Source of the DNA: a virus
Virus record (IMG/VR): IMGVR_UViG_3300013094_000223
Span: 1-26,823 of that record
Strand: one strand, 5' to 3'
DNA: 26,823 nt
The notes under the pieces are model-generated. The model searched no databases. It saw only the letters and a program-made list of their open reading frames with translations, and had not been told where the DNA came from. Each line of letters starts with the position of its first letter. The stretch's first letter is position 1. The position numbers and the translations under genes are program-made. Of this stretch, positions 18,176-18,929 are shown piece after piece.

Positions 18176-18248
18176 TGGGATGTAGCTCAGCAGGCAGAGC
18201 GTTCGGCTGTTAATCGAAATGTCGTAGGTTCGACCCCTACCATCCCAG
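18176..18248 (+). tRNA. tRNA-Asn (anticodon GTT)
   Basis: All arms fold: a 7-bp acceptor (TGGGATG with CATCCCA), D stem GCTC/GAGC, anticodon stem TTCGG/TCGAA (one G-T pair) with loop CTGTTAA, and T stem GTAGG/CCTAC with loop TTCGACC. The discriminator base is G, as expected for Asn. CCA is not encoded in full. The length is 73 bases. It decodes AAC and AAT, which are frequent in these genes. Confidence 0.93.
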
Positions 18249-18250
18249 CA

Positions 18251-18427
18251 GTGTAGTGACTAGCACTCGGTACCAGTTCTGTGATAACTGGTGTAGGAAC
18301 TGTTCCCGAATGAACAACTGTACTAAACCTTACAGCTGTGTCCTAAGAGTCACGTGGTTGCTCCTACTCGGAGGGTATCAGAGAGCAGAGTCGGTAGGGT
18401 AGAGACTAGTCACCTCTAGCCCTACAC
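18251..18427 (+). ncRNA. Structured RNA 1, directly downstream of tRNA-Asn
   Basis: This 177-base stretch has no credible reading frame and begins 2 bases after the tRNA. The ends pair (GTGTAG with CTACAC). A strong 3' hairpin spans 18394-18425: GTAGGG-TAGAG, loop ACTAGTCAC, CTCTA-(G)-CCCTAC, giving 11 bp with one bulge. Eight bases of its loop (CTAGTCAC) are exactly complementary to GTGACTAG at 18256-18263, predicting an 8-bp pseudoknot to the 5' end. Internal hairpins include ACCAGTT/AACTGGT (18272-18292), TGTTC/GAACA (18301-18316) and CTGTA/TACAG (18318-18335). Local G+C is clearly higher than in the neighbouring genes. I recognise no known RNA class. Confidence 0.72.
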
Positions 18428-18468: not shown

Positions 18469-18711
18469 ATGAATATGATGGCAGAAAAGACAGAGGAAGT
18501 TGTAGAACAATCTTATGTGCTTGGTCCCCAAGATCGTTGTGATTCTTGTTCTGCAGAAGCTCTAATTTGGGTAAATGGAGTGGCGGGAGAATTGCTATTC
18601 TGTGGTCATCATTACAATAAGCACGAAGAAAAATTAAAAGATTATGCTTTTGAAATCATTGATGAAAGAAGCAAATTGGTTCAAAATAGAGCGATAGGTT
18701 CCGAGAACTAA
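18469..18711 (+). CDS. DUF7455-like small protein
   Basis: This 80-residue protein contains DRCDSCSAEALIWV, then GELLFCGHHYNKHEEKL. This C-x2-C...C-x2-H type zinc-binding pattern matches the DUF7455 family, which is common in Actinobacteria and their phages. Function is unknown; the fold suggests a small zinc ribbon that contacts RNA polymerase or nucleic acid, but that is inference. The start could be 18469, 18475 or 18478. It separates the two tRNA/structured-RNA pairs. Confidence 0.8.
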   Translation: MNMMAEKTEEVVEQSYVLGPQDRCDSCSAEALIWVNGVAGELLFCGHHYNKHEEKLKDYAFEIIDERSKLVQNRAIGSEN

Positions 18712-18794: not shown

Positions 18795-18919
18795 GGCTAT
18801 GTACGACACACCTTAGGTATGGATATAGTTACACATAACCAAGTAACCCGTGTGAGTAGAGTTCAGCGGGAGACTCTTAGGGCAGCGTCATTCGGTGCTG
18901 GAATACTTCGTACATAGCC
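18795..18919 (+). ncRNA. Structured RNA 2, directly downstream of tRNA-Ile
   Basis: This 125-base non-coding stretch begins 3 bases after the tRNA. It is closed by a perfect 12-bp helix, GGCTATGTACGA with TCGTACATAGCC. Inside are CACAC/GTGTG (18807-18811 with 18850-18854), AGAGT/ACTCT (18858-18877) and CAGCGTC-ATTC-GGTGCTG (18883-18900, with two G-U pairs). The closing helix is followed by CCTTTT, so the RNA may end at its own intrinsic terminator. No sequence similarity to structured RNA 1 is apparent. No known class recognised. Confidence 0.7.
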
Positions 18920-18929
18920 CCTTTTAATG

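Follow-up and report, generated by a model that had tools for sequence, protein, structure and literature searches.

The block that lies between a tRNA-Asn gene and an 80-aa gene in the window (the whole stretch of 26.8 kb analyzed here, positions 1 to 26,823 of IMG/VR record IMGVR_UViG_3300013094_000223) is a real non-coding RNA gene, previously uncatalogued. It belongs to a family, designated family A, of which searches of IMG/VR yielded 15 distinct members: the window copy and 14 further ones. The members share a covarying fold and abut tRNA genes exactly, their distribution among related phages is patchy, and they occur as a single copy per contig, on contigs of up to 113 kb. We consider it probable that family A is a new family of phage non-coding RNA genes, carried as a cassette of tRNA arrays, from which the enzymes acting on tRNAs would release a trans-acting RNA; expression and function are inferred only. 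Phage tRNA arrays are treated as inventories of tRNAs; across a wide set of phages akin to the Stanwilliamsviridae of Streptomyces, they additionally contain conserved, covarying RNAs. The defined fold, the exact ends and the 15 available sequences make the structure and function of family A directly testable.

Identification of the family

The extent of the block, given as 18251-18427 in a preliminary description of this DNA, proved correct, and all sequence features named there were present on re-check. The mature RNA in the window is predicted to measure ~176-178 nt. The block is indeed less AT-rich than its surroundings, with a GC content of 0.50 vs 0.35 for the window, and only 0.26% of 177-base segments are as GC-rich. 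It was also rightly called non-coding: no ORF is conserved in any family A member, and coding-type conservation is absent. Since the lengths of the members (173-180 nt) differ by numbers that are not multiples of three, and the members share no preserved reading frame, family A is not coding. The remark that the block fits no known RNA class agrees with the Rfam searches, in which no family matches it: at the gathering threshold, none of the 4227 families except tRNA scored in the window or in 10 homologue-bearing loci, and a lax search of the block gave chance matches only. This absence is no proof of novelty, since Rfam also lacks the T4 RNAs rnaC and rnaD. Folding energy alone provides no support—the minimum free energy of the window block is not below that of shuffled sequences (z = +0.43), and z-values across family A range from -2.3 to +0.6 with a mean of -0.7—so the case for structure is made by comparison.

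Homologues were sought among the 80 closest terminase relatives, then with the 80-aa gene, then with word patterns over IMG/VR, followed by an HMM check. Among the 80 terminase relatives, the sole copy is found in L001, which is 99.7% identical over 10.6 kb and carries an identical block. The 80-aa gene led to L220, whose block is 71% identical and is flanked immediately by tRNA-Asn upstream and by tRNA-Glu downstream; the conserved words of this block served as the patterns for the IMG/VR scan. A first pattern, GTGACTAG..CTAGTCACC, retrieved only the near-identical contig and chance matches. Loci L246-L248, L250, L251, L255 and L256 were rejected as members, being pattern matches by chance in mostly coding-like sequence. 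The family alignment A4 comprises the window, L220, L233, L234, L235, L236, L239, L240, L242, L243, L244, L249, L252, L253 and L254. The window copy is 59-72% identical to the 14 other members, and the covariance model R1 recovers 15/15 members full-length at 131-204 bits, the window scoring 134 bits. A blastn search against INPHARED returned nothing for the window block or for two homologues, 85,000 prokaryote genomes held no family A match, and five Streptomyces phages that are near relatives yielded no copy even at E values of up to 10. The open-access literature contains no account of family A that we could find, which is weak evidence, as subscription papers were mostly outside the scope of the search.

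Table 1. Features of the family A locus, in window positions; pairing and variation refer to the family alignments.
Feature	Positions	Strand	Support
tRNA-Asn(GTT), directly upstream of the element	18176..18249	+	ARAGORN and Rfam
Whole RNA element (family A)	18250..18427	+	cmsearch 134.3 bits, full-length to model R1; alignments A4/A5
Invariant 5' GTGTAG	18251..18256	+	pairing with 3' CTACAC unsupported by covariation
Pseudoknot, 5' strand TGACTA	18257..18262	+	97.8% of cells paired, no covariation
P1, 5' strand ACTC (pairs with GAGT 18388-18391)	18265..18268	+	100% paired, never varies
P2 hairpin, ACCAGTT/AACTGGT	18272..18292	+	both sides change in 4/5 counted pairs; 100% paired
P3 hairpin, GTTC/GAAC, CGAA loop	18302..18315	+	both sides change in 5/5; 67% paired in A5
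P4 hairpin, CTGTA/TACAG, loop CTAACCT in most members	18318..18335	+	both sides change in 5/5; 97% paired
P5 hairpin, weak in the window itself (GTG/CAC)	18338..18353	+	both sides change in 5/5; 85% paired
P6 hairpin, CTCC-TACTC-GGAG, loop TACTC invariant	18361..18373	+	100% paired; A-U/C-G/G-C exchange
P1, 3' strand GAGT (pairs with ACTC 18265-18268)	18388..18391	+	100% paired, never varies
3' hairpin (helices 8 and 9), loop ACTAGTCAC	18394..18425	+	both sides change in 7/10 pairs
Pseudoknot, 3' strand TAGTCA, in 3' hairpin loop	18407..18412	+	TAGTC in 14/15, stem varying
80-aa gene (phrog_1720), downstream; conserved flank of the slot	18469..18711	+	

Covarying fold, predicted pseudoknot and ends

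Alignment A5, in which 44 pairs in 9 helices were counted, has standard pairs in 93.6% of its cells, compared with 77.7% after shuffling and 28-43% in slid controls. Changes on both sides are found in 27 of the 44 pairs, and the covariation score of 0.49 (shuffled 0.19) is reached in 0/500 shuffles. A5 was fitted to the counted structure, and the counts lean towards it accordingly; even so, given how far the controls fall short and what the raw sequences show, there is little doubt that the covarying fold, inferred as it is from aligned sequences, is real. Two-sided changes affect nearly all pairs of P2, P4, P5 and the upper part of the 3' hairpin; at its base, this hairpin is GTAGG/CCTAC in some members and GTGAG/CTCAC or GTAAG/CTTAC in others. 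The 11-bp 3' hairpin noted earlier, which consists of 6+5 bp with one bulge (G18419), is confirmed by strong compensatory changes, and the suggestion of several hairpins is supported by compensatory change in most other helices among homologous phage contigs. P1 never varies and is left without covariation support. An alternative fold from RNAalifold on a MAFFT alignment, pairing the 5' end with 3' GTTGCTAC, was rejected, as it would disrupt both the pseudoknot and the covarying P6.

The pseudoknot was originally proposed as an 8-bp match between the loop of the 3' hairpin (CTAGTCAC at 18406-18413) and the 5' end (GTGACTAG at 18256-18263). The pairing itself stands, with a core shortened to 6 bp, and the family is consistent with it without proving it by covariation. 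The loop core TAGTC is fixed in all members but one, the complementary 5' TGACTA is nearly invariant, and a single G-U change occurs in the two strands across the family; with so little variation, covariation cannot test the pairing. Support comes instead from the retention of the loop core while every pair of the stem that carries it changes, and from the low probability of a chance match: a random 6-nt loop would be Watson-Crick complementary to some conserved family A 6-mer in ~0.4% of cases (6% with G-U). On these grounds the predicted pseudoknot is well supported, though not by covariation. By contrast, the supposed pairing of the ends, GTGTAG with CTACAC, has to be given up: it shows no compensatory change and is in competition with the 3' hairpin, whose base covaries. 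A conserved second motif, AGTC[AG] near 18390, is also complementary to TGACT, and the minimum free energy fold uses it. Judged from complementarity, a switch between two exclusive folds is possible, in which TGACTA would pair either with AGTC[AG] or with the loop TAGTCA.

Position in tRNA arrays and probable exchange between phages

All 15 members lie inside tRNA arrays, on the sense strand of the array. In every member the element starts 0-1 nt past the tRNA gene predicted by ARAGORN, and the 5' junction consists of the discriminator base, C, then A or G, then GTGTAG. The tRNA preceding the element is one for Asn, Trp, Glu, Leu or Gly; except in the window, another tRNA (Leu, Glu, Gly, Ser, Val or Asp) begins 1-3 nt beyond the end of the element. 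As five kinds of tRNA precede the element and six or more different neighbors follow it, it is independent of any one neighbor. The tie to tRNA-Asn is accordingly correct as regards direct abutment in the window, but the link is to tRNA arrays in general and not specific to Asn. Only in the window is the next gene a protein gene, and with no tRNA there the 3' end of this copy is not set by RNase P.

The exact start at the tRNA 3' end is the site described for tRNA-associated theta ribozymes (PMC10879173), and it raises the question of whether the element might be a ribozyme whose self-cleavage, at its own 5' end, would generate the mature 3' end of the tRNA that precedes it. Family A has a pseudoknot and unpaired stretches that do not vary, as would befit a ribozyme; tight abutment, however, is equally typical of ordinary tRNA arrays, and the boundary is the only feature that family A shares with theta (HDV-like) ribozymes. 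The topology is not the nested double pseudoknot of HDV-like ribozymes, as the outer strands pair with the loop of the far 3' hairpin, the element is roughly twice as long as minimal HDV-like ribozymes, and no Rfam ribozyme family matches it. Judging by helix order and Rfam, without a dedicated motif search, a nested double pseudoknot with a catalytic C in J4/2 was not found. Self-cleavage therefore appears improbable to us. Somewhat less so, yet still unlikely, is a role in cis, as part of the array transcript, in the folding, processing or stability of neighboring tRNAs or in the regulation of downstream genes. Such a role would agree with the constant placement within the array on one strand and with the two possible exclusive folds, but not with neighbors that vary from phage to phage, nor with the lack of family A in most related arrays.

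For the trans-acting RNA that we favor, tRNA biology suggests the following course. Family A would be co-transcribed with the tRNA array and released by 3' processing of the upstream tRNA together with RNase P acting on the tRNA that follows; the product would be a stable RNA of ~176 nt, for which there are no expression data. In the inferred structure, five hairpins would branch from the short P1, and the loop of the 3' hairpin would dock on the 5' end as the pseudoknot, locking the fold. The weakest step is the action in trans, in which the fixed loops CTAACCT, TACTC and CGAA, presented on variable stems, might contact a host or phage factor. No neighboring gene points to a function; the partner would most plausibly be translation or tRNA-targeting defense machinery, and the RNA would stand alongside others of phage tRNA arrays whose function is unknown (T4 rnaC/rnaD, GOLLD, ROOL).

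Relatives of the window terminase, 54-76% identical, are encoded on 10 of the 14 other member contigs, the remaining four being fragments without a terminase. Among isolated phages, those closest in terminase and DNA polymerase are Streptomyces phages, including Stanwilliamsviridae, in which the gene order around the terminase is the same; the window phage and its nearest relatives we take to be freshwater phages, a reading of the group rather than the result of a tool. Most close relatives have no family A element, and the slot is taken by other tRNAs or other RNA families. In L003-L005, tRNA-Asp and tRNA-Trp follow tRNA-Asn at this place; other relatives read among the 80 have tRNA-Asn, then an AT-rich leader and the same 80-aa gene. 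The identity of the element is out of step with that of the terminase: the window and L254 share 76% identity in the terminase but only 60% in the element, whereas the window copy is 66-72% identical to most copies from phages with a terminase ~55% identical. This makes exchange of family A as a cassette between phages likely, as far as sequence comparison can tell. Going further, one may conjecture that the tRNA arrays of these phages are cargo sites through which at least five unrelated structured RNA families rotate (A, B after tRNA-Ile, and C, D and E in relatives), excised at no cost by the tRNA-processing enzymes, with family A acting in trans, perhaps against host defense or in steering translation; we hold this broader view only tentatively and do not expect all of it to stand.

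Patchy presence and exchange, together with the nearby terminase gene in the window, could also point to an element acting as DNA, for instance a mobile insertion with inverted repeats, or a site of recombination or packaging. This is very improbable: the helices form internal hairpins whose exchanges include G-U pairs besides Watson-Crick ones, the element is always on the sense strand of tRNA arrays, and array and terminase are widely separated in other members (in G001 the element is at 96.7 kb and the terminase at 77 kb). The pair of tRNAs occupying the slot in L003-L005, similar in total length, would alternatively allow the block to have arisen by decay from one or two tRNA genes. Neither ARAGORN nor the Rfam tRNA model finds a tRNA (nor is there a tmRNA match) in the block even at lax thresholds, and covarying helices kept in 15 members are unlike decay, by which this origin is largely refuted and scarcely credible. 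No credible candidate emerged for an odd intron-bearing tRNA either.

Known phage RNAs and further RNAs of the arrays

The nearest analogues of family A are T4 rnaC and rnaD, the species 1 and 2 RNAs, which are small and stable and measure 139 and 119 nt. They were detected as late RNAs by Northern blot and their function is unknown (PMC9697503). Like family A, they are small RNA genes in a phage tRNA array, with rnaD located 1 nt after tRNA-Arg, and family A thus matches them in location, as a small RNA gene abutting a tRNA. Homology between them was not detected by HMM or covariance model, the best model score in the T4 region (3.4 bits, E 0.7) falling outside rnaC/rnaD. A T-arm-like GGTTCGAATCC is present in rnaC, which ends with a T-arm-like hairpin; family A has no such GGTTCGAATCC. 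Neither T4 gene (L262 1409-1547 and 1554-1672, minus strand) matches an Rfam 15 family at the gathering score. Family A reopens the old question of the role of the species 1 and 2 RNAs. GOLLD and ROOL, structured phage and prophage RNAs often found near tRNA islands, are likewise of unknown function (PMC12286853). They are oligomeric and ~660-800 nt long, in contrast to the 173-180 nt of family A, which meets neither mark of these families: it matches no Rfam model and does not exceed 600 nt.

Sorting the inter-tRNA gaps in all fetched loci revealed several non-coding clusters besides A, namely B, C, D, E and smaller ones. Family B is located in the window at 18795-18921 (plus strand), directly after tRNA-Ile, and has a core CTTAG..ATAGTTAC and a closing stem of 11-12 bp. 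It comprises 31 distinct gaps in the sorting and 46 distinct sequences by motif, with minimal 79-nt versions in L006 and L018. Both sides change in 10/11 pairs of the closing stem, the only part covered by covariation; the family folds better than shuffled sequences (z -2.73) and is absent from Rfam and INPHARED. Families A and B occupy the same niche in the same phages and co-occur in the window and L254, but the fold of B is one long closing stem, unlike that of A, and no sequence relation was found. The words GACTCTTAGG and TCATTCGG that the reverse complement of A shares with B look like chance, R1 having no significant match to B loci.

Families C, D and E are known as gap clusters only, without covariation evidence. 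Family C is a non-coding block at L159 2330-2470, L173 2307-2470, L146 5112-5251 (minus strand), L180 3571-3732 and L242 11972-12107 (minus strand), with words partly shared around ACTCGG..CCTTAC..ATAAAC. Family D, ~153-172 nt between tRNAs with conserved GCATCATACGAAG..GTTCAG..GGAGATTGCTCTGC, is found at L158 2163-2315, L180 3326-3495, L128 4142-4313 and, on the minus strand, L235 911-1079, L120 366-534 and L124 3909-4063. Family E, ~130 nt between tRNAs, starts with GATAC and ends in a strong hairpin (L120 163-293 and L124 3628-3758, both minus strand; L236 810-938; L249 8506-8634). Three smaller clusters or singletons are also non-coding: L142 2190-2269 (minus strand) with L254 4055-4133; L242 11792-11883 with L244 6589-6679 (both minus strand); and L243 1222-1340 (minus strand), which is closed by GGCGTATCC/GGATACGCC. 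In the Streptomyces phages TunaTartare and Francob (L257, L260), an unannotated motif AAGCTTwCGGGTCG..GTTATCT is repeated in tRNA gaps, and once it apparently lies within a tRNA-like gene, in an intron-like placement.
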